Part shown: in pieces, positions 1-63,128 of the stretch
How the letters are laid out: each line of letters starts with the position of its first letter
Position numbering within the stretch: the stretch's first letter is position 1
Program-made: the position numbers and the translations under genes
The notes under the pieces: model-generated
Seen by the model: only the letters and a program-made list of their open reading frames with translations
Told to the model about the DNA's origin: nothing
Databases searched by the model: none
Assembly: GCA_033439255.1 (NCBI GenBank)
Contig: CM065884.1
Span: forward strand, 3,086,320 to 3,150,319
DNA: 64,000 nucleotides
Direction: 5' to 3'
Source: Hericium rajendrae
Lineage: Eukaryota; Basidiomycota; Agaricomycetes; Russulales; Hericiaceae

Positions 1-3000
1 CCGCCACTCACTGCCGGCCAGAGCTCCTACACAATGTGGGTTGGCGACTTCAATTGTCACCATCCTGCCTGGGACAATCCAAGCGACGAACGGTACTTCA
101 CGCCTCGGAACATTGAGGCTGCGGATTTCCTCCAGGATACATGCAGTTCTTTAGGCCTCGTGATGATCCTTCCTGCAGGCATACCGACCCATCGTCATAA
201 AGTCACTAAGCTATGGTCTCGCTTAGATAATGTCTTCGCCTCAGAGGAAGCGAAGGATCTATTCACGGTCTGTGACACCACCCCTGAGATTATGGACGCT
301 GATCACGTTCCGATTCGGAGTGTCATAGACATTCCACTCGCACAGGCTGCACAGCCGCAGCGCCCCAACTTTCGGGGCACCGACTGGACTGCTTTCGCTG
401 AGAAACTTCAAAGCGAGCTAGGCGGTGTACGAGCGCCAGCGTTTCTACGTACGCCATCAGACTATGACCGCGCCTGTGCTGACCTTACATCGGTCCTGCA
501 ACGGACAATCGATGCGATGGTCCCGCTATCCAAACCCTGCCCGCATAGCAAACGCTGGTGGAGTGCAGACCTTAGCGCCATACAGAAAGAACGAAACAAG
601 CTGAGTCGCGCTTCACACAAACTGCGGGGTGTCCCTCACCATGCATGTCACGAGAAACTCAAGGACGCGAATACGCGTTACAGCAAAGCTATTCGCGCAG
701 CCAAGATGCAATACTGGGAAGATTGGCTGGAGGATGTCGAAGGTGCTGATGTCTGGACAGCAAACCGTTATCTCACGGAACCCTCCATCGACGGAGGAAA
801 AACTCACATACCGACGCTTCAACGAGTGCAGCCGGACGGCTCGTCACAGGCAGTCAACTCTAATGCCGAGAAGAGTCAATACCTGGCGAGTTCTTTCTTC
901 CCACCACCCCCTGCTGCGTCCTCGGTACCTCTCGATACCGACTTCCTTGAGCCTCTAGATGACCCGGCGCCCTTCACGCGTGCACGGATCAAGGCACAGA
1001 TCGCGAAGCTAAGTCCCTTCAAAGCACCGGGCCCTGATGGTATACCTAATGTGGTCCTCATGCACAGCGCAGATCACATTGTCAACCACCTGTATTACAT
1101 CTATGAAGCTTCGCTCCGCCTGGATGCGTATTATGGACCCTGGCAAGAGTTCATCACCGTGGTCCTGCGTAAACCAGGGAAGCCACGTTATGACCTACCC
1201 AAGGCATATCGGCCAATAGCCCTGCTCAACACGCTCGGTAAGGTTCTTTCTGCGCTAGTGGCAGACCAAATCACGTTCCTCGGTGAAAAACATGGCCTAC
1301 TCCCACCTACGCACTTTGGTGGGAGGCCGGGGCGAATGACCACAGATGCTATGCATCTGCTAGTCCAGACTGTCCGCGACGCCTGGCGACAACATAAGGT
1401 GGTATCTGCTCTTTTTCTGGACATCAAAGGTGCCTTTCCCAATGCCGTTACTGATCGACTCATCCACAACCTCCGACGGTGTCGGATTCCAGTTGTCTAC
1501 ACAGACTTCATTGGCCGTATGTTATGGGGTCACAGCACGTGCCTCCGATTCGATGCTTTCCTCTCTGACCCCATCAATATAACAAATGGAATTGGTCAGG
1601 GTGACCCACTCTCTATGATACTCTATCTTTATTACAATGCTGACCTTTTAGATATCCCGATTGCCCACTCGCGATCTGAATGTGCTATGGCCTTTGTGGA
1701 TGATGGTATTCTCATAGCCATCGGCCCCACCTTTACTGATACACATGGAACCCTTCATAGCATGATGATGCGCACAGGCGGCGCCATTGATTGGTCGAAT
1801 GAACACAACTCGAAATTCGAGTTCAGCAAACTAGCCTTGATGGACTTCGCTCCCATCGGGAGTCAGAAAGTAGGCATGCCATTGGAGCTGCCCTCCATCA
1901 CTGTGCCACTCTCGGACAGTACAAAGTACCTGGGCGTCATGTTCGACTCCCGCCTCACCTGGAAAGTTCAAAGTCAATACGCAATAAAGAAGGGTACAAC
2001 ATGGGTACTGTCACGGATCGCTCCATTTCTCTCCGCCTTCTTCTCTGCCATCAAGGCATCGCGTCGGTCATGTGCTCCAGCAGCCCCATCACATGTTCAC
2101 TTCCTCACATGACCTGGGGCTATCCTTCACCCATGCCCTTGTTCCCCTTTGGGACATCCTATTGTTCTCCCTCCCATTGTTCTCCTTTTGGCCACCATTG
2201 TTCTCACTCTATTGTTCGACCCGTTATGGTGTCCATTGTTCTTTTCCCATTGTCGTCCCAGTACTTATAGGCTCCCTGTCGCTCGCCTATTTCCCTAGAT
2301 TGTCCATTTCGTCTGTACCGTACTGTACCTCCAATACAGGTCACTGCGCTGCTAGTCGCTCTCTGCTCTCTCGCTCCCATCATCGCTGGTGACTTGGGTG
2401 GTTCTCTGCTGTCTACGACCGAGTCTTGACAGGTACTCGCCTTGCGTCGCTTGGCGCGCCCATCCCACGGAATCACCGCATGCCACGTACGTCAACTTTA
2501 CATTGCTGTTGCCATCCCGAAGATGCTCTATGCCCTAGATGTCTGGTGCATTCCCGCACACCCATCGCCGACCGGCCATGGTCCCCGACGAGGCTCTATC
2601 GGTGTTATCGAAGCCCTTGGCCGGGTGCAACGCTTAGGGGCCCTGGCTGTCACGGGTGGGCTGCGTACCTCGCCGAAGGTAGCACTGGATGCACATGCCC
2701 ATCTTCTGCCTATGGATCTTCTGGTCAACAAGTCCTGTCACAGGGCAGTTGTACGTCTCTCCACCCTCCATCCCTCCCATCCTCTGGCATCGCTGGTCAA
2801 GAAATGTGCAAAGAGATTTGTAGCGCGTCACCGTGCACCACTTCACCACCTCTTTCACATCTTCCCCACCCCACCTGCCATCTACGAGACTATACCCGCA
2901 GTCTGGCACAACCCTGCCAAGCCTCTCCCCTACTCGACGGAAATCGCAGCTGACCGAAAGGCAGCTGTTGATGCGGAAACCGAATGCATGGACGTTATCC

Positions 3001-3818
3001 GAGTTTACTCGGATGGCTCAGCACACGATGGGGGAGTCGGGGCTGCAGCCGTCTTGATCCGGGATGGACGCGCGCAACGCACACTTCGCTACTACTTGGG
3101 GCCCGACACTGAGCACACCGTGTTCGAGGCAGAACTAGCTGCCACACTGCTCGCCCTCGAGCTTCTGCACACGGAGAAGAATGCCTCTAAGGCGACATCA
3201 ATAGCCGTTGACAATCAGGCAGCAATTCATGCCTTGCACTGCTCCAAGCCGCGCCTGGGTCATCATCTTGCAGCAGCCTTCCGCCGTGCTGCCACCCGAC
3301 TAGACGGACAACGTGGAAAGACATACAGTCTTCGGGTTCGATGGATTGCAGGACATGAGGGCTGCGATGGGAATGAACTGGCTGATGTGGCAGCAAAGAA
3401 GGCAGCTGAAGGCCATGCCAGCCCGAAGGCCTCGCTCCCCCAGTACCTCCGCAAGCCCATGCTGCACAGCGTCGCTGCGGCGAAGCAAACTCACTTGCAG
3501 GCACTGAGGGCACAGTGGAGCACGCGCTGGAAGGAAGACGCCGCTTGTGACCGGTTCCGGCGGCTCGACCCCAAACTACCAGGGAAGTCTTACATGTCAC
3601 TTCTTTCCAAGGCTGACGTGCTGCGTCGCTCTCATGCTAGCATTCTGTTCCAACTCCGTGTTGGTCACGTTCCGCTCAACCACTACCTTCATCGGTTCGC
3701 CAAAGCGGCCGAGCCACATCCGAAAGGATGTGCATGGTGTGACTGCGAAGATGAGATGGTTTACCACTACCTACTCAAATGTCCAGAATTCCAAGGCGAG
3801 CGCGAAGCTCTTCAGTGA
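1..3818 (+). pseudogene. LINE ORF: endonuclease / reverse transcriptase / RNase H, split by a solo LTR
   Basis: The first half (1-2008) has the end of an AP-type endonuclease (GDFNCHHPAWD near the start, SRLDNVFAS, DADHVP) and then a reverse transcriptase with SPFKAPGPDGIPN, the palm motif FVDDG near 1695-1709, and KYLGVMFD. The second half (2437-3818) has RNase H (VYSDGSAHDGG, later DNQAAIHAL and GNELAD) and ends in a CxxC...H...C knuckle (CAWCDCEDEMVYHYLLKC). The halves sit in frames that differ by exactly the inserted 428 bases (LTR plus one target duplicate), so the ORF was intact before insertion. The protein copies and inserts the element's RNA. The copy is now inactive unless the LTR is removed. 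Confidence 0.88.
2009..2431 (+). mobile_element. Solo LTR of the local Gypsy family, inside the LINE ORF
   Basis: This 423-bp block begins TGTCACGG and ends CTTGACA (TG...CA termini). It is flanked by the perfect 5-bp duplication GGTAC (2004-2008 and 2432-2436). Its sequence matches, in reverse orientation, the LTR at 10931-11337 and the LTR fragment at 4568-4681. No internal element sequence remains, so it is a solo LTR, normally left by recombination between the two LTRs of an inserted element. It interrupts the reverse-transcriptase ORF without other damage. Confidence 0.93.
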
Positions 3819-4567
3819 GCACTGAAGGTCCGCCGGGGCCTGCTGATCGGCCATCTCCTCACGGGGGAAAAAGCGGTCATACCGTTGATGCGATTCGTCA
3901 CATCAACGCGTCGTTTCACAGGACTCGGTATGTTACCATCGAATTCATAAAACTTGCGACTCTGCTAGGCCCCTCTACATGTACTTCAGATCACGGGGTG
4001 CCTCGGTGCCCCACCCCCCTCCTGCACTACAGTCTCGTGGCTTCGCCTCCACGACAAGACGAATTACAAAATCGGGCACTTCAGGCAGGTTGGAAGGATA
4101 TGGATTGGTGGGAGAATAGTTTGCGCATGGGTGGTGATAAGAGATGGACAGGAACAGGCTATGTACGTGATTTGCGGTAAAGCCACTGCCCGTCCACCCT
4201 CTCAACATCGCCCCGGCTCTGACTCCGACGTCTCACGGCGTCAGCCTGGTGCTCAATCCCAGTGGCCTTCAAAAAGCCCTAAGGCACCTCCGACACACTC
4301 ACTCTCCCATATCCCCTCCTCCTGCTCCCTGTGCCCGACCTGTTCTTCAGGCCGGTGCTCGCCCTGTGCTCGCGCATGGGGGAGAGCCATTATGTTGCCA
4401 ATATTCACCAGCAGATTTCTCTCAAGCAAAAGGTACCTCACTCGGGGGTCACTCAATGTTTTTCAGATGGGCGGTGGCATTCGGGCGGGGTAGCACTATC
4501 ATGTAATGCCGCATGGCGCAACAGCGCCGCATGGCAATATGGATTAAAAAAAAAAAAAAAAAAAAAA

Positions 4568-4681
4568 TAGCCCCAGGTCATGTGAGGAAGTGAACATGTG
4601 ATGGGGCTGCTGGAGCACATGACTGATGCAATGCCTTGATGGCAGAGAAGAAGGCAGAGAGAAATGGAGCGATCCGTGACA
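4568..4681 (-). repeat. 3' LTR remnant of the Gypsy element
   Basis: This is the reverse complement of the first 114 bp of the LTR: it runs from TGTCACGG at 4681 leftward to the LINE poly-A at 4567. It contains the 16-bp segment AGGAAGTGAACATGTG seen in the solo LTR (2009-2431) and missing from the 5' LTR. The pol reading frame runs into it and stops at 4578-4580. Confidence 0.9.
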
Positions 4682-5387
4682 TCACCCCCTCTCTAAGACG
4701 CACTTTCGCCTGGAGTGCGTGATGAGCATGGACGGGGTTGAGGTAGATGAGTCCGCGAAGATTGGGAGCCTTGAGTGCATGCGGATGGCGGGTGTAGAAG
4801 TCGGTGATTGCACCATGGGCATTGGAAAGGGAGGTACGTGAGAGCCACTGATTTTCTGAATCAGGGTAGCCTGCCCATTTGACGAGATATTCAATGCTGC
4901 ATTTGTTCCGGGTGAGACGAGCATCGAGGACAGACTCAACTTCGTACTCTTCCTCGCCCTCCACAAGGTCAGGTGGTGGTGCAGGGAAGTTGGGACCATG
5001 AGCATCGGTTTCCTTGTAAGGGGACAACAGGGACGTGTGGAACACCGGGTGGATACGCCAGGTGGGCGGTAGCTTTAGTCGATAAGAGACTGGGCCCAGG
5101 ACGTCAGTGATTTCAAAAGGTCCCAGGCGTCGATCAGCAAGCTTAGCTTTGGGTCGTGTGGTTTTGATGTTCTTGCCATCGAGCCAGACCTTGTCACCAA
5201 CCTGGAAGTGGATGGTGTCGTGCATATGGTCCTGGTTGTTGCGCTTCATGAGATCAGCAGCTGTTTGAAGGCTGGCCTGGACCTCAGTGCGAAGTTGTTC
5301 GAGGTGACGGAAACAATCCTTGACGGCGGGTGTAGACGATGTGGGGTTGACAGTGGGGATGGCAGTGGGAATATAGCCGAGGAGCAT
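4578..5387 (-). pseudogene. Gypsy pol, part 4: integrase C-terminus and chromodomain
   Basis: This 269-residue frame is continuous with the upstream integrase except for a TGA at 5400-5402. The first half is the integrase C-terminal GPY/F-like region (RLGPFEITDVLGPVSYRLKL). Residues near 140-185 form a chromodomain (YEVESVLDAR...EYLVKWAGY...ENQWL), which in chromoviruses steers integration toward particular chromatin. The frame passes through the polypurine tract into the 3' LTR before stopping, so the last 34 residues are LTR-encoded. It is in the same frame as the other pol parts. Confidence 0.88.
4682..4696 (-). other. Polypurine tract of the Gypsy element
   Basis: On the minus strand a purine-rich run (AGAGAGGGGGTGA) lies directly before the LTR start TGTCACGG. 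This is where plus-strand DNA synthesis is primed in LTR retroelements. It overlaps the coding frame of the pol C-terminus. Confidence 0.75.
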
Positions 5388-26029: not shown

Positions 26030-26695
26030 GGCCCGCTGAGACGATTTCCGAGTACTTCTTGACTTCCGATCTGTATTCGAGAAATGGGCAGGATGATGGG
26101 ACGAAGACTACATGGTGCACCGTCACCTACCGTCACGGACAAGTACTCGGCGGCCCGGGGTCGGCCATCGTTATTTGATCCCGACCCCGCATGTGGTCAT
26201 CGTGTCTACATGGTTGCCTGTTCCGACCAACTTCGACTCGGGGCTACTGCAGCAACTCTCAGCGCTCAGCCCAATGCTACACGCACAGGTCTGCTCACAT
26301 GCTGCCTGCTGCTGAAAAAATAAGTTACAAAAGCTAACACACGATGACCTAGGTAAGTGGTCGTAAACTATTGGTAGTGCTAGGCGATGGGACTGGACTC
26401 TGGAGTCAGTCTGATGATAACATCTCAGATTCTGACGCAAGCGAGCAACAAAGTACGACAAATATGGATTCTGGCTATCATGAGCTGATGCCTTTCTCCG
26501 ATGGTTTGTAGTATAAGGCTGTACTTCAAACTAAGCATGCAGGAGCAAAATTACTGTCAAATGGTGTGCGCAATGAGGGTGCCACGCCCCAGATAACAAT
26601 TTCTCACGATGCCCACAAGATTATTTAGCTGGAGACTTGACCTGTCGGACTAAGCCATCGCCCTCAGAGCGCTCAATCATTCTCCTCTTACCGTC
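26030..26695. other. Divergent promoter region, no gene seen
   Basis: It lies between the start of the HAD gene (minus) and the start of the penta-EF-hand gene (plus). No frame here has recognisable features. Confidence 0.5.
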
Positions 26696-27896
26696 ATGTC
26701 GATCTATTCAAACCCCAACTATAGTACTGGCCTTCAGCACTCCCATAGCTATTCCTCGCATCATCACCATCATCATAGCCCGGCTCCTCCGACCTACGCG
26801 ACGGGAAGCTTTGGCGGATACCAGTCTGGCCCACCTCCGGGCGCAGACCCTCAGCTATGGCAATGGTTCAGCGCCGTAGATGCAGATCGCTCTGGTGCGA
26901 TCAGTGTGAATGAACTACAGTCGGCACTTGTGAATGGTAGGCACATTTCTCAAGACACGATTGACCTCGGGATACTGTTGATCTCATCGATGCGTATACA
27001 GGGAATTGGTCAAGTGAGCATTTCTTCATGCACGTACTCTGACGTCTGGAGCAAGAAGCGTCGAATGTATTACGGTTCACGGTAGCCTCATCGGCGCGGG
27101 CCTGTGATTTTCGGGCACTACGTTTCACAGAATATTCGATGCTGCAGAGCTTGATTAGGCAATAATCTAATGAACTGACCCTCGGTATCTGACAACCTTT
27201 TTCTCCTTCATCTCAGGATTTGACCTTGACACGGTGAAGATGTTGATGAACATATTCGTACGTTGAGTCTCAATGGTTTCATTGCTGCTCTGAAATTTAC
27301 CTTGGCAGGACACTGATCGCAGTGGTACCATCGGCTTTTCTGGTCCGTGCATGCGCCGTCGTCTCCCGTCTTGTCGCTGAAGGATTTCGGGGCAGAGTTC
27401 TCCGGACTTTGGAAGTATGTCAGTGATTGGCAGGGCGTGTTCAGACATTTCGACAAAGACCGGTCTGGATCTATCGATGGATATGAATTGGCAGAAGCAC
27501 TGCGCAGCTTTGGCTACAGCCTATCGCCCAGCATTCTGACACTCATTGAACAGAAATATGGTGAGTGTTGGTGAAACGGCATCAGATTTCCGAAGATGAC
27601 GTTCAAGGCAGCCTCTGGACCCTCTTCTGGTTATGGTCCTCCACCTGGCATCACTTTTGATAGGTTTGTGAGGGCATGTGTGGCTGTTAAGACACTAACT
27701 GAGGCTTTTCAACGGTATGATCACTTATCAAAATTGCTTGACTATACTAATTGATCATCATGTAGTGTCGACACGGATCGTGACGGCTGGGTGACGATGA
27801 ATTACGAAGAGTTTATGAAGGTGATACTCCATTCCCTTCGATAATTATTAGCTAACCGCGATCTTGTCTTCGTAGATTGTCTTGAACGCGCCCTGA
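26696..27896 (+). CDS. Penta-EF-hand calcium-binding protein (ALG-2/peflin-like)
   Basis: Eight exons (26696-26936, 27002-27013, 27217-27257, 27309-27342, 27396-27560, 27612-27714, 27766-27820, 27876-27896) give 223 residues. The N-terminus is Gly/Ser/His/Tyr-rich, including a His run, as in peflins. EF loops follow: DADRSGAISVNE, DTDRSGTIGFSE, DKDRSGSIDGYE, a degenerate GITFDRF region, and DTDRDGWVTMNYE. Such proteins bind calcium and act as adaptors in membrane traffic and ESCRT-linked steps. Exon 2 is only 12 nt (codons for NWS) but is needed to join the first two hands in frame. Confidence 0.92.
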
Positions 27897-28320
27897 AAAC
27901 GTTCAGAAGATCGAACGATGTGCTCGGTGCTCAGGAACTTGGAAGTGTTGATTATAATGTGTTCCAGGATTGCCTATTATGAGCCCTGTATCAGCATTTG
28001 GGAACGAAGTGGCTTGTATGATACATGTCTATGTGATCCACGTGCTCTGAGTTATGTAGTATGTACAGACGATGATGGATAATGAGATTTGAAATGTGAA
28101 ATTTGAAAAACAAAGTGCCAATGCTGCATACATCATCTTTGGAATTGAATTGGTTAATCATGACTGCATTGGTGAGGTTAGTCGACTCTGAAACATGTGA
28201 AAACCGAGTGTAACGACCATGATATCACGCGCATGCCGGCCCCTGGGGCTCCCTAGGAAGCTCTGACGGCGCGTCAAGCTCTGCATCATCTTTTGTCGTC
28301 TTCCTCCTACCTTCTGCTGA
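27897..28320. other. Intergenic, no gene seen
   Basis: 3' region of the penta-EF-hand gene and promoter of the acyl-CoA synthetase gene. It has CT-rich sequence just before the ATG at 28321 and no supported frame. Confidence 0.5.
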
Positions 28321-31276
28321 ATGGCAAACTTCGATAAGACCGTGCCTCTTCCCCCAGGCGTCGACTACAAGAGACAATCTGTTGCTGTTCCAGGCACGAA
28401 AAGGCCGGGCCAGACAGGTGAGATGTTGACCCCGCGTTCAACCGTCCTTGCGCTCAACAGTACACGCGACACTTCGCAACTACAGCTCACTACCGCAGCA
28501 GTAAATATCTGGACACGTCCTCGAACAGTTGCGGTCGCTCATCGTCCTCGCAGGTGCTTTTGGTCTTTTCGAGGTCGATGTCCCTGGTGGCCTGCTAAAG
28601 ACATTGCCTGAAATATTCGAGACCGGCCTCGCGCGTTCACGAGACCACAATCTCTTGGGACACCGCCCCCTCGTGTCTACCAACCCTCTGAAGTTCGGCG
28701 ACCATTTCGTGTGGCAGACATGGGCCGAGGTAGACGCGCGGAGGCGCCATATTGGTAGTGCTATCCACCATCTCTTCAGTGCGGGACAGCTCGGCGGTGG
28801 CGAATATCCCACAGTCGGTATCTGGAGTCAAAATAGACCTGGTGCGTGGTCTTTTCTTTTCTGCTCTCAGAATAACTGAAGGGATCGGTGATCAGAATGG
28901 CAATTGGTGGATTTCGCACTGCACGCCTACGGTAAAGTTGGCGTCAGTTTGTATGACACGCTCGGGAAGGACTCAGTCGGTGAGCTTGTTGATTCTCTTC
29001 CGGCATTGTCGTCATGACGTCTCATTCCGTACTTATGTAGAGCATATGTGAGGTTATGATCAATTTGCGAGAATGATCTAACTAATTTCAATCTAGTATT
29101 AACCACTCGCACTTGACGATTATATTCGCAAGCTCCGATCATGTTGTCGAATTGCTGAAGCTTGCACCCCGAGTACCTCATTTAAAGGCCGTCGTATCGC
29201 TGGATGATCTACTGCCCGAGCTGAAGAATGCTCTCGCTACTTGGGGCGAGACATTGGGCGTTGCCATCAGGGAGCTACGCGAATGTGACACTCCAACTCC
29301 TCTCAATATGCCTCGTCACCACTCATTGATGCTCATTCTCAGTGGAGGAGTCTGGGACGGTGCATTTGATTGATCCTTTGCCTGCGACTTCGGATCAGCT
29401 TGCCTCCATATGTTATACATCAGTCGGTAGAGTCCAGCACACGAAGCATTTTCTTTGCTGATTACGAATGCAGGGAACAACTAACACGCCAAAAGGTCAG
29501 TATCATATCATAGCCTTCAGTCTTGGTTCGTTGATTCAATGAGTGCCCCAGGCGTGCTTTTAACTCACGGACAGCTCGCGGCTGCAGCACAATCTAACCT
29601 ATGCGGCTTTAGCATCCCAAACGAAGAACGGGCATGTGGCTTGTCTTATTTACCTTTAGCTCACATATACGAGGTCGGCTTTGACTCGGATCGCAGAAAT
29701 TATCTTTCGCTGACGCGTATCTAGCGTACCAACGAACTCTGCGTGATCGCTGTTGGCGGCAGCATCGGGTTCTTCACTGGAGACCCACTGCGCTTGCTGG
29801 AGGATGCCCAACTCCTTAAACCGAACTTCTTCCCGTCTGTACCCCGGGTCTTGAACAGAATCTACCAGGCTGCTATGGTTGCAGGAAGCGGGCCAGGTCT
29901 GCGGGGCGCGATTTTTCGGCGTGCTGTCGCCGTTAAATTGCAGAAATTGCGGACTACTGGAGAGAACACTCATCCACTATGGGATCGTGTCGTATTTAGA
30001 AAGGTACATCATGTCTTGCTTATCGCAACAGAACAAGTACTGAATATTTGGCAGATCCAAGCTGTCCTGGGTGGCAACTTAAAGCTCGTTACCTGTGGTT
30101 CGGCCCCTATCACTGCGGAAGTTATGGACTTTCTGAGAATCGCTTTGGCTTGCGATGTTCTAGAAGGTAAGCACACGTCTGTCACGCTAGCCCCGATGGC
30201 TAATCCTCATTCTATAGGGTGAGTTATCTATATGCAGCACGTCGGTGGAGACTTCATTCGCTATCGCAATTCGCAGATACGGTATGACCGAGAACGGTGC
30301 TGTTTGTAGCCATGTATGGCCGAACGATCCGACCTCCAGTGGGACCGTTGGACCGCCTAGTGCCGGAATCGAGATGAAACTTCTCGATGTCCCTGCTATG
30401 GGCTATACGTCCGAGGATAAACCGTGTCCGCGTGGTGAGCTTTGCTGCCGTGGGCCGAATTGTTTCTCAGGTTACTACAAGGGTATGTGCTTCATGCCTG
30501 TCACGTGCTCGTGTTAACATATCTTGCAGATGAAAGGAACACGAAGGAGACGGTCGATGAGGAGGGGTGGATCCATACGGGTGACGTCGCGATGATCGAC
30601 GAGTGTGGCCGTTTCAAACTCATCGACCGTGTCAAGGTACGATACGCCTGTTTTCAGCTGGGCCTTACATCCTTCTGACGTCCTCCTTTTGCAGAACATA
30701 ATGAAACTTGCCCAAGGCGAGTACGTCGCCCTGGAGAAGATCGAGAATATGTATTCGTCACTGCCACTTGTGGCGCAGATGTATGTGCACGGAGATTCTT
30801 TGCAGGCCTACTTGGTCGGCGTCATTATCCCCGACCCCGTACAATTCGCCCAGCTTGCAAGTCGTGTACATGGCATGGAAGTGAAGGCAGAAGACATGGA
30901 AGCTCTAGATAAGTTAACTAGAGATCAAAGAGTCGTGGACACCGTTTTGGAGGAATTGACGAAGGAGGGCCGGAAGAACAAACTTAAGGGGTAAGACCTT
31001 GCATTCACAATGCCGGCCTGTTCACTAATCCCACTGCGCGGAGCAGGTTTGAGATGGTTAGGCGCATTCACATTTCGATGAGTCCCTTCAGTGTCGAAGA
31101 CAACACGATGACCCCCACGCTGAAGATCCGCAGGTACTGTTCCCGTTCTTGACCATCTCTTTGAGTACTTCTCATTTGCTATTCACAGGAAGGAAGCTTA
31201 TCAGAAGCATAAGGCCGCTCTCGATGCGCTATATGCACTCGGCGAGGCAGGTGCCCTATCCCAAACGCACCTATGA
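28321..31276 (+). CDS. Long-chain acyl-CoA synthetase (17 exons, one of 1 nt)
   Basis: Exons: 28321-28417, 28486-28500, 28554-28841, 28896-28979, 29041-29047, 29097-29284, 29343-29422, 29474-29495, 29552-29673, 29725-30003, 30055-30166, 30218, 30277-30482, 30530-30636, 30695-30990, 31047-31133, 31189-31276. They total 2079 nt and 692 residues, the usual size for fungal FAA proteins. Motifs: ATP loop ICYTSGTTNTPKGVLLTHG, LSYLPLAHIYE, EGYGMTENG, GWIHTGDVAM, LIDRVKNIMKLAQGEYVALE. It activates fatty acids to acyl-CoA for lipid synthesis or beta-oxidation. The conserved EGYGMTE needs a lone G at 30218 between introns 30167-30217 and 30219-30276. Without it the frame breaks. I see no convincing peroxisomal C-terminus (ends QTHL). 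Confidence 0.92.
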
Positions 31277-32023
31277 GCTTGCTTGTTCTCTTGCGTCGAA
31301 TGTCGGACCGCACGTCTGGTATGCAGGGGTGCTTATTTGTATCTTGCGTTTGATCTTGCAAGTTGAACCCGCTGCACATAGACTTCTCAGTCCCGTACCT
31401 ACATTATTTTTCCATGTTATAATCCAATGTCACACGGCAGCCGATGATGCACCATTTGCTACCTGAGTTGCTGACGAGAACTGTCATCGATCACTATTCG
31501 ACCTATCGCAAGAAGGCAACAACATGATATCTCGTAAAAGAACCGTACGGGGCAGGCAAGAACTGTCTGTATATAGATAAACAAAACTAAAGTACGCAAG
31601 TACCAATATGATGGCGAAGACATGCGTAACAGTACACGTCTGAGGATTATTGATGTGCAAGCCAGTACCGTAAAGAAAACCCCTGTGATGTGCATAACAA
31701 TGCAAAGTTAATCAAAAAGGAAACAAGATCGAAGGCATATTGCTGGTCAGAAACAGTGAGGGAAATAAGAACGGGATCGGAATGGGAGAGAACGTAGACA
31801 GATATGTCAGTCAAGATATAAATCTGCTAAGAAAGGGATGAATAGGATGTGAATACAGTTAACAAAGCACGCAGAGCGCGGGCAGATGGCACAAAGGAAG
31901 ACATAGATCAAAGCACGATGGATGAGTGCGGCGGGTATATATATAATCCACTACGACAAAAAGAAATACACGGTTGGGTGAGGACGGCGTTGCGGTATCG
32001 TTTCCTCACCGTGCAAAGGGCGC
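31277..32023. other. Convergent intergenic region, no gene seen
   Basis: 3' ends of the acyl-CoA synthetase gene and of the Ser/Pro-rich gene face each other. AT-rich sequence with no supported frame. Confidence 0.5.
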
Positions 32024-33123
32024 TTAGAATAAATCCATCTCATTAGGCGTAGGCGGAGGCAGCGGAACGAGAGCAGGAGAATTGGGAGCGCTCGTGGGCG
32101 CTGGAGTTTGTGGAGGCGAGGTTATGCTGGGCTGGAAGAGACCACTGGAATCTTTGAAGGGCATTTCGTAAGATGGATGGCGTTGAAAAGGGTTACGTGT
32201 ATGGATGCGAGAGACGGGCGACGCTGACAACGAAATGATACGAGACGGTCAATGGCTGCCATGCACCTTGATGGCAAAACAACACGAACCTAGCGGCCCG
32301 GAGCCGAACATCCGGAAGGGCACCACCTCTGAAGCAGTGTCGTTTTCCTCATCTTCCTCACGAGCGGTCAGCAGATAGGGACTCAAATGCATGCTGGTCT
32401 GCTTTGCAGGCGTGCGTACATCTTCGCAAAGGACGGGGGACCGGACCGGAACGTTATCAAGACGATCCAAAGGCTTCGAAGAAAGAGGCGTAGGCCGTTC
32501 ATGAGCAAAGGTGAGAGGGATCCTACGGGCTATTAGAGTGGGCGATTGAGGGGGGAACAGAGACGGGCGCAAGATAGACAAGAACTCCTCCAGAGCCTCG
32601 GAGGGAAGGGAAGAGCTGTAAGAACTATGTCAGTTACGTCGACCTAACAGAACGAAAGAAACTTGTAGCCGCGTGCGGAGAGCACGGCGGCAGTGGATAG
32701 GAAAGGAGGATGGACGCAAGAGGTAGAAACTCACCGTGGAGAACCACGAGGAGAAACTGAGACGAGGTCCTTGTCTGAAGTGGAGCGGGCAGCATCGTCG
32801 TTCTCGTCTTCTGGGGGTTTGAGACGATCAGGAGCATCTGGAGGCGCGGATGCAAGGCGGAAGGAGTGGGGGCGGGTCGGGGAGGAGTGAGAGTGGAAAT
32901 TGGAGAAGGAGTTAGCGGTGATGCGGACGGGACGGGGAGCGACGAGGACGATGTTCTCAGAGGCGGCGGAGTGCATGGTGTACAGCGGCGAGGACAGTGC
33001 GGACGACGGGGACGACGACGACGACGACGACGACGACTCGCCTGAGACTCTGTTTGGCTGTGCGTGGACGTCAGCAGGCACGTGCAGATACACGTGAGGA
33101 GGTTCTGATGGGGCCGATTTCAT
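32024..33123 (-). CDS. Ser/Pro-rich protein of unknown function
   Basis: Three exons (33123-32735, 32615-32290, 32223-32024) give 304 residues, with all junctions GT-AG and in frame. The N-terminal third has a poly-Ser tract (encoded by the GAC-type repeat near 33011-33037) and many Ser/Pro dipeptides. The middle has SLPSEALEEFLSILRPSLFP and an acidic patch (AREEDEENDTASE). The end has PFRMFGSGPLASPVSRIHTR and a Pro-rich tail ending EMDLF. Numerous SP and TP sites suggest a phosphorylated, largely disordered regulatory protein. I recognise no domain. Confidence 0.75.
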
Positions 33124-59888: not shown

Positions 59889-60066
59889 CATTATTACTGC
59901 TATATTCAATGAACTCATACCCTTATAATGGTGACAATATGTTACAACCGGACGGTCTTCCCTTCCCAAAATAAAGCATGCACAGCACACACCAGTTATG
60001 TGTGTGTTAACCATATTTCCACTAGGAGCCACTTGACTGTCGTCAAGAAGCTAGTCGGGACGACAT

Positions 60067-61548
60067 TCAGTAGGTCGTGTAGCAAAGAGTGTAAACCGAT
60101 GGAATAGATGGGCTTTGGATATCTGTTGACATGCGCTCTTCGACTTTCAAGATGAAATAGAGATATGATGGGACTGACCGTGATTGTACTGCAACTTGAG
60201 TAGCATGAACAATTTCTTTCTCGCTGACAGCGAGATGCTTATGTATCCACGAAATTGCTTTTCTCAATCGCACTTGTGTCACTGGATTTAGATGAAAAGA
60301 CACGCGTCACGACACCGGTCCGAGAAAGAGACCGCAGCTCACCAGGCAGGCGCGTTGTTTTCTCCCCCAAAAGCTGACTCCTACAACCCACACGCGTTAT
60401 GTATCAGCATTCGTCCCGACAATGCCGAAGACAAAGACATGCCTCCTTTTAAGATCATCCGATCTTTCATATGAAAGAGGTGATGCTTCTGCTATCGGTC
60501 CTGTGACTATTGATGTCACCCTGATACCATATGGCTGTAGGGCGTCGCAAAGATGTCGTGTAACAGCACGGCGGGCTCCTTCTATAGAGAACCCGAAGTT
60601 GTTTCCATCTAAAACACATCAGTTTCTCCACGAACCTTTTGGAGAAAATATTTACCTTCTAAGCTCGGAGAAATAATAATGATTCGGCCAGAAGTTTCCC
60701 GCAGCATCCGCGTATAGTCGTGGGCCATTAATATTGGCTCCGTGACCTGAGAGAGTACCCTTTTCCTCCACCGATCTTCCTCAGCGGAACATTCGGAGCA
60801 TACATCAACGGCCCCGGACGTCAAATTATGGAGCAATATATGTGAAGACAGCGAGTCTCGGCCTGGGGCTGGAGATACTACCAGAGCTACGAGCTTCAGC
60901 TTGTAATTTTGGCAGTAGGTTTGGACCGTCTCAAGCGCGCGCTGTCGCTGAGAGTTGGACCAGATGTCAAGTGACACGGGAGCTATCAGGCCCCACGGCA
61001 AGGATCGTCTTCGTTCCTTGCGGTTATGCCACATGTAGAGAAGCTTAACGCCAGATAAGAACTTCTCTTGCGCACGAAGAATCAGAAGCTTACTGAAGAC
61101 ACGTTGTCCTGCTCGTGGGGACCATGTCCAGATTGTTCTTCAGCCTGATTAGGGCACAGCGCGAAAACTGTATACCCTAGCTCTGAAAATTGCAGAGCTA
61201 TACTTCTTCCAACACCTTTTTACAATGTAGGGCATGTGAGATGCCGCATGGAAGGATGGACGCACCTTCCTGGACACCAAGGACGAGTATAGCGCTGCTG
61301 TCCGGGCTGTACGTTTCGCAAGGTCGTATCCTGCAAATCTCCAACAAAATATCAAAGATGGATGATGAGAATGACTCAGAAACAAGAATCGCTCGGCGAA
61401 AAAGCCCAAGCAATGCCCCAAGCATACATTCCACAAGGCGCAAAATCATCGATACGACCGAGGAGGATGCTGGGCTCTCCGGTGTTTTCGGCCGCCCAGA
61501 TCTATCAAGTGAAGATGAATGCATGTGCTGAGATGAGTGAGACTTCAT
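60067..61548 (-). CDS. Rossmann-fold protein of the DUF1776 type (short-chain dehydrogenase-like)
   Basis: A multi-exon gene read from about 61548 to 60067. A hydrophobic N-terminal stretch (MILRLVECMLGALLGLFRRA) precedes SAILVLGVQEGVGRSIALQF, a glycine-rich nucleotide loop, then LGYTVFALCPNQ. Further exons give LLYMWHNRKERRRSLPWGLI, LETVQTYCQNYKLKLVALVV, GNNFGFSIEGARRAVTRHLC and YGIRVTSIVTGP, an SDR-like core, then an RKAISWIHKHLAVSEKEIVH helix. This matches a fungal family of unknown function. Exact 5' and 3' ends and the last two exons are uncertain. Confidence 0.7.
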
Positions 61549-62865
61549 ATCTCAGGCCGCCCAGGATATTGGGGGAATGGTAGTGAAGGCGCGCAGCAGG
61601 GATGGAAGCTAATACGGACCTCAGACCTGACGTCGGCCCTTATACCAGGCACATGGGTCGTGAGATCAGGATAAGATAAGATTTTGAGATGCATCTCAGA
61701 TCTGCTCAAGCGATCCTCAGCAATTGATGCCGAGCCAAATTTGCTTCCGTCTCGACCACCAGAACGTACTACGTTGCAACTCGCTCATCCCCTACTTACG
61801 TCTCCAACAACGCCTCGCCGTCCTGAGAGGTAAAATTATACCGACGCTCCTTATTTTATTTATAACCGCCCTCGGTGACTAACACCTCAGCCGGATTTTT
61901 TGACTCCCAAACATCACAGAACTTGCTGAATGAGACACGCATGCTGGCGTATGTCATTTCGTTCACACCTCGGCCCTGTTCGACGGACGTGAGGCCTTTC
62001 TAAAATTCGTGCTTCGGCCGACTGCTGAAGTGATCGAGCCGTAGGCCGCCGCTTGTAGGTCCTTCGGCATTTGGGAAAATGTGCGGTGAGTAAGGTTCAT
62101 GTAGGGGTTTGTGCCTCAGGCTTGGGTAATGGACATGGAGAAGTACTCAGCCAGCAGCATGCCCAGATGAACAGCATCCGATCAGTTCTTGCACTGCTGG
62201 GCGATCGTGCGCTTCAATCTTGCGCCCATCGACCAGCATCATCTGCTTCTTCCGTGGACAACGTGCAGTTGTACTGCATCCGCTTGATGGTGTAGGCCAG
62301 ACTTGATGCACTTTTTCATGACAGACGACGGCGACAGACGGACACTGGGGCATTATCGGCGAGGGAAGTTCGCTCTTATACAGTCTGGAGCCCAGGCGCT
62401 TGGACGAAGCTAATTACAGACTTGTGAATCCCTTCTCCGTGTGACACTTCCAACGTTATAACTGGTCCATCTCATAGGACTGGACTTCCCCCACGATCTC
62501 GAGGCACACGGGTACTTCGAGAAGTCTTGATCCCATACTTGACGTCATGGCGCAGAAAATCCCTGCGACTTCTGAAGCCTCAAATAATTACTGATTATCT
62601 CCACTCGCACTCCGAGGAGAAGACACAGAACGAAGTCTATCTGATACATATCTGGGAATAGGAAGCAACGATACAATGTCTAGTAAGCGTCCAACACTCG
62701 CGAATGCATCAAGAAGTCCGTGTGATAGCTACAGTGCTACAGTCCTAAATAAAGCCGAGAGAAAAAAGACGGCACCATCTAGTGCTGCTGGCCGTGATCG
62801 GCGTTGAGGAGATCGGCACTGTGGGCGCAGAGTTATTCCAGCGCCCAAATCGCGATAGCGACCAC
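61549..62865. other. 1.3-kb stretch with no supported gene
   Basis: Promoter side of the DUF1776-like gene and 3' side of the 51-residue gene. Short frames (for example 62071-62295 plus and 62353-62147 minus) show no domain or consistent splice partners. Confidence 0.4.
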
Positions 62866-63128
62866 TTACGGGAGATTCACGGTCGTGTTGGTGCCTTCAA
62901 GGCGAAGCGTGACGATCTGGGTGCCCTAGAAGTATGTGTTAGAAGATTCAGGCCGGAGACACGAAACCTTGCGCGTACATCGGCCTGGATGCTGGTGCTT
63001 TGGACCCGCCCGTACACGACGGTCCCGTTCGAGTCCCAGAAGAAGACGCGGGCGCCATTCTGCCGAAGCGGGTCAGAAACGACCGACGAGCGTCCCGGAG
63101 CAGCGCTGCTTACCGCGAAGTTGTTCAT
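62866..63128 (-). CDS. Small conserved-looking protein, 51 residues
   Basis: Three exons (63128-63114, 63059-62979, 62925-62866) join in phase 0 with GT-AG borders (GTAAGC...GGCAG and GTACGC...TCTAG). The product starts MNNFANGARVFFWDSNGTVV, continues YGRVQSTSIQAD, then GTQIVTLRLEGTNTTVNLP and stops. There is no signal peptide or membrane span. Alternating hydrophobic residues and a Gly-Thr turn suggest a small all-beta fold such as an SH3-like barrel. It resembles short, uncharacterised basidiomycete proteins as I remember them; function unknown. Unspliced frames over this stretch on both strands are shadows. Confidence 0.65.

Follow-up and report, generated by a model that had tools for sequence, protein, structure and literature searches.

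The window analyzed here, a stretch of 64,000 nucleotides from the 46.8-Mb genome of Hericium rajendrae (19 contigs), contains an acyl-CoA synthetase gene (Table 1). The initial annotation joined 17 exons into an in-frame protein of 692 residues, and the same model was rebuilt exactly. The sole Pfam match of this protein is the AMP-binding domain PF00501 (E = 1e-69; 235.7 bits compared with a gathering score of 29.9), which places it among the AMP-binding enzymes. Among the best 120 of 6170 homologues, the first ones listed are a Dentipellis protein (78% identity over 99%) and a protein of Hericium alpestre (Russulales, Hericiaceae; 94% over 57%), from which the last 260 residues differ at eight positions. 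Three exons of the gene are 15 nt or shorter (15, 7, and 1 nt). Leaving out the 15-nt exon 2 gives a model with 16 exons, 687 residues, and 2064 nt including the stop codon. Intron 7 (29423–29473) has an unusual donor, TCA|GTCGGT. A GTAGAG sits 4 nt downstream, and it is TCA|GTCGGT rather than GTAGAG that keeps TSGTT in frame.

The upstream neighbor (window 27500–28000) resembles an EF-hand protein, with a PF13405 score of 19.5 bits, below the 25-bit cut-off, for a peptide joined by eye. A protein from Amanita inopinata (P0045, 935 aa) joins EF-hand domains to an acyl-CoA synthetase, which suggests that the two genes may adjoin in that species as well. Farther upstream, two repeat ends (window 2003–2435 and 4567–5000) share an inverted similarity of about 121 bp and belong to a repeat that the genome contains in many nearly identical copies (40 of 400 candidates scored). 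This repeat is probably a mobile element.

Table 1. Features of the acyl-CoA synthetase gene (positions within the window).
Feature	Position	Strand	Basis
Acyl-CoA synthetase gene, 17 exons, 692 residues, stop codon included	28321..31276	+	Spliced translation, PF00501, Dentipellis homologue
Exon 2, 15-nt micro-exon, encodes AHYRS	28486..28500	+	Spliced model; AHYRN at the corresponding site of P0001, P0003, and P0005
Exon 5, 7-nt micro-exon within SVEHIINH	29041..29047	+	Spliced model; junction counts in homologues
Exon 11, 112 nt, ends GAA G, phase 1	30055..30166	+	Sequence, spliced model
Intron A, 51 nt, AAG|GTAAGC ... TCTATAG, stop-free in reading frame	30167..30217	+	Spliced model, enumeration
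Candidate branch site CTAAT; second A 14 nt before last intron base	30200..30204	+	Sequence; role inferred
Exon 12, a single G, central base of the EGYGMTE Gly codon	30218..30218	+	Spliced model, second copy, intron enumeration, homologues
Intron B, 58 nt, AGG|GTGAGT ... TTCGCAG	30219..30276	+	Spliced model, enumeration
Exon 13, 206 nt, starts A TAC, phase 2	30277..30482	+	Sequence, spliced model

The candidate one-nucleotide exon lies in the conserved motif EGYGMTE. As first described, exon 11 ends with GAA G at 30166 and coding sequence resumes at 30277 with A TAC GGT ATG ACC. Both are present in the sequence, as is TTCTATAG|G|GTGAGT between them, with its G at 30218. In the spliced model, G + G + A make the Gly codon, and GAAG + G + ATAC reads Glu-Gly-Tyr. 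Canonical GT-AG introns stand on both sides of the single base (GTAAGC..TATAG, G, GTGAGT..CGCAG), and without G30218 the frame breaks in the conserved motif. An enumeration covered introns of 40 nt or longer from 30055 to 30482. Single GT/GC-AG introns that are open and keep EGYGMTE numbered 0 of 109. Two-intron GT-AG solutions that are open and keep CDVLEGYGMTENGAV (CDVLEGYGMTE intact) numbered 1 of 1066, namely 30167–30217 plus 30219–30276, leaving G30218. The proposal of two ordinary introns around one base is thus the sole GT-AG solution in this enumeration that preserves the motif, and both genomic copies (see below) have this arrangement. Other acceptors, other donors, and GC donors were all rejected by the enumeration. 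The dismissal of other AG acceptors in the initial annotation holds up in this respect, with the correction that one AG ends at 30237, not 30236. Its statement that an upstream GT donor at 30155 would keep the frame does not, as the GT is at 30157 and is out of frame with the acceptor at 30276. It also overlooked two possibilities that are weighed below, an open and in-frame read-through of intron A and non-canonical single introns that give an identical mRNA.

For the splice sites themselves, a scoring matrix was built from the 14 other introns of the gene. The donors of introns A and B score 9.0 and 8.3, compared with 3.9–9.5 in these other introns. The acceptor of intron B scores 6.6, and that of intron A scores 4.0, below the 4.4–10.0 of the other 14. 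An unused AG at 30237 outscores the latter (7.7 vs. 4.0), and both points count against the one-nucleotide exon. The lengths of introns A and B fit the range of the 14 others (47–68 nt), whereas one intron of 110 nt would lie far outside it. By chance, AG|G|GT alone in mid-intron, with 40 nt or more in either half, is not rare; it occurs in 2% of shuffles and in 20 of the 440 GT-106nt-AG stretches on both strands of the window. The stricter pattern YAG|G|GTRNG was found at rates of 0.085% in mononucleotide and 0.115% in dinucleotide shuffles, and in one of the same 440 stretches. Because the locus meets this pattern and is among the 440, the single match is the locus itself.

Two related arrangements were rejected. 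In a stwintron, one intron is nested in the splice site of another and the whole stretch is removed, such that no exon base should remain; removal of the 110 nt (30167–30276) is absent from the open in-frame solutions. In a zero-nucleotide recursive splice site, acceptor and donor abut directly (AG|GT), but one G separates AG from GT here.

The acyl-CoA synthetase gene is present again on contig C12 (C12:897000–902500 vs. window 26624–32124; 99.1% identity over 5.5 kb). A 3-kb piece of the window that follows 29 kb later also matches C12, with 98% identity and with order and spacing retained (C12:866083–869083 vs. window 60001–63000). The collinearity is based on these two compared pieces (5.5 and 3 kb). 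For the repeat-rich part of the window (2001–5000), no collinear C12 match was found among the 40 of 400 candidates scored. These patterns are consistent with C12 being a retained contig of the second nuclear haplotype, or with a recent duplication of large size. In the second copy, G30218 and the surrounding splice sites are identical, intron A has one substitution (30181), and intron B has none. An error at G30218 is unlikely because both copies keep the base and its splice sites. Across the gene, 12 codons differ between the copies and the frame is conserved; nine of these differences are silent and three are not, such that the gene looks constrained. A more distant paralogue on contig C2 (38% identity) was considered for polarizing the introns. 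Its exons are continuous across the motif (LLQGYGMTES), with no intron at the site, so it is of no help for this purpose.

For comparison with other fungi, 8000 candidates were scored in the homologue search and 6170 homologues were found, of which the best 120 comprise 97 NCBI-sourced proteins and 23 without an NCBI entry. These 23 are uninterrupted, with 648–713 residues, and the longest contigs carrying them are 2.2–4.0 kb (10.4 kb in one case). Because such contigs are short for so intron-rich a gene, the 23 are read as transcripts, as their form suggests. The motif EG[YWF]G[MLQ]TE (or with Q for E) is intact in all 23 transcript-like homologues vs. 50 of the 97 NCBI-sourced ones (Fisher p = 2e-6). 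Under a second rule, in which a junction is broken if the pairwise alignment has an indel within four residues, the one-nucleotide-exon junction is broken in 44/97 NCBI-sourced vs. 0/23 transcript-like homologues (Fisher p = 7e-6). Among the other 14 junctions of the NCBI-sourced proteins, twelve are broken in 0–6 or 12 of 97. The individual counts are six each for junctions 1 and 2 (15-nt exon), four for junction 3, one, four, and three for junctions 6, 7, and 8, one each for junctions 9, 10, 13, and 14, and 12 and zero for junctions 15 and 16. In the transcript-like homologues, one of 23 is broken at each of junctions 1, 2, and 15, and none elsewhere. Junctions 4 and 5, which flank the 7-nt exon 5, are broken in 18 and 16 of the 97 NCBI-sourced homologues and in none of the 23 transcript-like ones. 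Because of this difference, the 7-nt exon is probably also conserved and often misannotated.

The 47 NCBI-sourced proteins without an intact motif comprise 18 with one extra residue (EG-X-YG.TE), ten that have lost the motif, and 19 that are otherwise altered. They include Stereum (Russulales), Boletus reticuloceps (Boletales), Gymnopilus (Agaricales), Obba (Polyporales), and Jaapia (Jaapiales). A gene finder in need of one base may use the second GT (+5) of a GTNNGT donor and thereby insert one codon. This explanation fits all 18 one-residue insertions, but almost any residue would fit. Congeners differ from each other, with Lactarius hatsudake clean and L. psammicola not, and Dentipellis sp. 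clean and D. fragilis not; motif breakage therefore seems to reflect annotation rather than biology. Amanita phalloides (P0107) and some other garbled annotations enter the counts only, with no splice model. The annotation of H. alpestre reads EGKHTSVTLAPMANPHYIGYGMTE, which may be the outcome of reading through intron A and removing intron B after the orthologous G. No transcript-like Hericium protein was found among the best 120 listed in each of the three homologue searches.

The other two of these searches used shorter queries (best 120 of 153 and best 120 of 419) and added 210 proteins, many of which appear to be single-exon ORFs from DNA. Splice patterns of relatives were deduced from back-translation of these ORFs, most of which carry no species name. 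Among the 210, 88 have no motif or fewer than three residues before it, 71 have a direct E/Q-G/A, and 51 enter the motif in frame from other sequence. These 51 have R or S (42) or G (9), and nothing else, directly ahead of the motif; R or S corresponds to AG|N, a phase-2 acceptor, and G to AG|GN, a phase-1 acceptor. The 42 phase-2 acceptors were rejected as proof of the exon, given that a simple phase-2 intron would look alike, and direct support was counted solely from ORFs that reach the mid-intron site. All seven long ORFs (covering the full range of 44–66 nt) can encode YAG|G|GTR, at one place each and 50–59 nt before the final acceptor, compared with 3–9% of shuffled peptides for each; P0235 and P0236 among the seven are near-identical and not independent. 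Two of the eight shorter ORFs match as well, at 55 nt, and are testable to 61 nt, whereas the six without a match reach only 46–52 nt. P0138 and P0206 include exon 11, with 106 and 112 nt from the phase-1 donor to the acceptor (53 + 1 + 52 and 53 + 1 + 58). Both distances are a multiple of three plus one and therefore fit a one-base exon. When checked by hand, none of the nine matching ORFs can be read as an exon 11 end (GAR-GG|GT), which rules out simple phase-2 donors in them. Only P0138, P0206, P0232, and P0272 show intron sequence of some length upstream of the site, and the other five have 2–7 residues before it.

Over exon 13, the nearest named relatives of the long ORFs are Pilatotrama (90%; P0272), Termitomyces (85%; P0232), Collybia (85% for P0235 and P0236, 81% for P0138), Macrolepiota (75%; P0206), and Punctularia (69%; P0329). 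The two shorter matching ORFs are nearest to Russula vinacea (100% for P0240 and 93% for P0250), the annotation of which reads EG-D-YGMTE. The last Gly base would be T or C because this D, if derived from a shifted donor, ends so, and the S of P0240 requires the same. Signs that the exon is conserved, strong but indirect, are seen in the second copy, the H. alpestre protein, 7/7 long ORFs, and 2/8 shorter ORFs, with the relatives represented by proteins and ORFs only. Short ORFs on contigs of 5–17.5 kb (P0152, P0173, and P0208) run uninterrupted through EGYGMTE, which suggests that some relatives may have lost both introns at the site. Searches for fungal DNA in other collections gave six loci among genome contigs, all bacterial by title, and one distant locus (34% identity) in each of two scans of viral contigs; none of these could be used.

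One alternative is that intron A is retained as coding sequence, such that exon 11 extends to 30218 and only 30219–30276 is removed. The protein would then have 17 extra residues, EGKHTSVTLAPMANPHSIGYGMTE, between EG and YGMTE. The 51 nt are open and in frame here and open in the second copy too, and the H. alpestre annotation takes such a form. However, the junction is free of indels in all 23 transcript-like homologues, the motif is gap-free in the three solved-structure alignments listed, and the donor AAG|GTAAGC is strong. Furthermore, the corresponding intron is 53 nt in P0138 and P0206, such that divisibility by three is not kept. This form is very improbable as the main product, although a minor intron-A-retained form is compatible with the one-nucleotide exon as the main reading.

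Alternatively, a single non-canonical intron of 109 nt could yield the same mRNA, GAAGGATAC. Within the range tested and with any border dinucleotides allowed, exactly three such introns restore the motif, 30167–30275 (GT..CA), 30168–30276 (TA..AG), and 30169–30277 (AA..GA). Each has at least one non-standard border despite the presence of a complete canonical pair, and each is about twice as long as the neighboring introns. Moreover, relatives can encode YAG|G|GTR mid-way. Like the retention of intron A, this explanation is highly unlikely. Even less plausible, and hardly to be expected, is that the true structure is a simple intron obscured by a one-base assembly error or in a frameshifted pseudogene. 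Some relatives do have a simple phase-1 intron at the site (six ORFs that hold both sides), but both genomic copies agree, and so, by implication, does the annotation of H. alpestre, which is independent of them. The preponderance of silent differences between the copies (9 of 12 codons) and the intact remainder of the 692-residue frame also argue against this explanation.

The one-nucleotide-exon interpretation of the initial annotation is supported, because it is the sole enumerated GT-AG solution that keeps the motif, is found in both genomic copies, and has matching signs in relatives. As far as sequence comparison can tell, G30218 is very probably a constitutive one-nucleotide exon between two short GT-AG introns that are spliced stepwise, and it is probably shared beyond this species. 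The 50 intact NCBI-sourced annotations, the nine ORFs with a phase-1 acceptor, and the six shorter ORFs without a match weigh against this reading. Introns A and B would split one Gly codon after its first and then its second base, and the spliceosome would take them out successively by intron definition, joining GAAG + G + ATAC. Simultaneous assembly on both introns seems hardly possible because their splice sites nearly touch or overlap in space. The exonic context of donor B (AGG|GTGAGT) is unchanged by the removal of intron A, and acceptor A is TATAG|G whichever intron goes first; therefore, neither order is favored by the sequence. At the junction, the one-nucleotide exon predicts an mRNA with GAAGGATAC, as distinct from the 51-nt retention or GAAGATAC. 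An mRNA with GAA-G-G-A-TAC would exclude read-through and other acceptors, yet it fits the non-canonical single introns; because those three yield an identical mRNA, cDNA alone is insufficient as proof of the exon.

For the evolutionary history of this site, the exon appears to be shared by relatives in several orders of Agaricomycetes, and other relatives appear to have a simple phase-1 intron or none. In two distant ORFs, P0154 and P0204 (43–45% to the closest named protein among the 97), one phase-1 intron stands where intron A does, which is why intron A may be the older one and intron B the one gained. It is likely that the exon is old and predates the split of Russulales, Agaricales, Polyporales, and Boletales. 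In that case, the phase-1 intron A would be ancient, with intron B gained later, one base downstream, and loss of B or of both introns would have produced the simple or intronless form in other relatives. Gene finders that miss the one-base exon would account for about half of the NCBI-sourced annotations examined being wrong at the catalytic motif. An origin of introns A and B by tandem duplication of a single intron, worked through by hand, gives the wrong frame. For the one-nucleotide exon of CYP621A, it has been proposed that a base was lost and that a cryptic AGGGT came to the rescue (Nelson and Syed, 2026; PMC12940212). Such a rescue may also apply to G30218.

The initial annotation called one-nucleotide exons extremely rare. 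They are rare, but they are already documented in APC11, VPS55, CYP621A, and snoRNA hosts of Candida; the acyl-CoA synthetase gene would be a further case of a known kind. The CYP621A exon of Fusarium, reported in 20 orthologues and supported in two species by SRA reads that span the junction (PMC12940212), is similar in several respects. In both cases, the exon is a G in AGGGT and the central Gly base of a conserved motif, with a phase-1 boundary before and a phase-2 boundary after, the stretch is about twice the usual intron length, and genes are misassembled. The two differ in that CYP621A is an ascomycete P450, whereas the present gene encodes an acyl-CoA synthetase and belongs to Agaricomycetes, of which several orders apparently have the exon. 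The constitutive one-nucleotide exon of Arabidopsis APC11 was tested by mutation in protoplasts, and its authors favor intron definition and stepwise removal (PMC4674806), which the splicing proposed for G30218 matches. However, that exon is from a plant and is an A, whereas the present one is a fungal G. In land plants, the 1-nt micro-exons of APC11 and VPS55 are backed by RNA-seq and RT-PCR. They are widely conserved and absent from reference annotations, as the fungal exon described here appears to be, and a further parallel is that most monocots have an intronless APC11 (PMC8831610). Another fungal case comes from the Candida parapsilosis group, in which single-base G exons lie between two introns and stepwise and recursive splicing have been discussed, but these exons belong to snoRNA host transcripts and not to a reading frame (PMC5033589). 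Among basidiomycetes, very short exons between numerous short introns are found in Phanerochaete P450s and Sirobasidium bglA, for which the shortest exons given are 6 bp (PMC1184071) and 5 bp (PMC9142197), not one nucleotide. In the open-licence literature searched, mostly titles and the beginnings of abstracts, no description of a one-nucleotide exon in a basidiomycete or an acyl-CoA synthetase was found, and no paper combined "microexon", "basidiomycete", and "acyl-CoA synthetase".

Taken together, these findings add one more protein-coding family, seemingly the first from a basidiomycete in the literature searched, to the very short list of genes with one-nucleotide exons. The comparison suggests that many other mushrooms may share the exon and that public annotations are often wrong exactly there. 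If this comparative reading is true, the conservation is unusually broad for a one-base exon, and its persistence over several mushroom orders would mean that reliable splicing of such an exon is possible over long times. The exon would also explain why annotations of a metabolic enzyme go systematically wrong in a conserved motif, and signs such as EG-X-YGMTE allow misannotated homologues to be found and corrected. Finally, the natural series of genes with the exon kept, a simple intron, or no intron is suited to tests of how the spliceosome handles sites one base apart and in which order.
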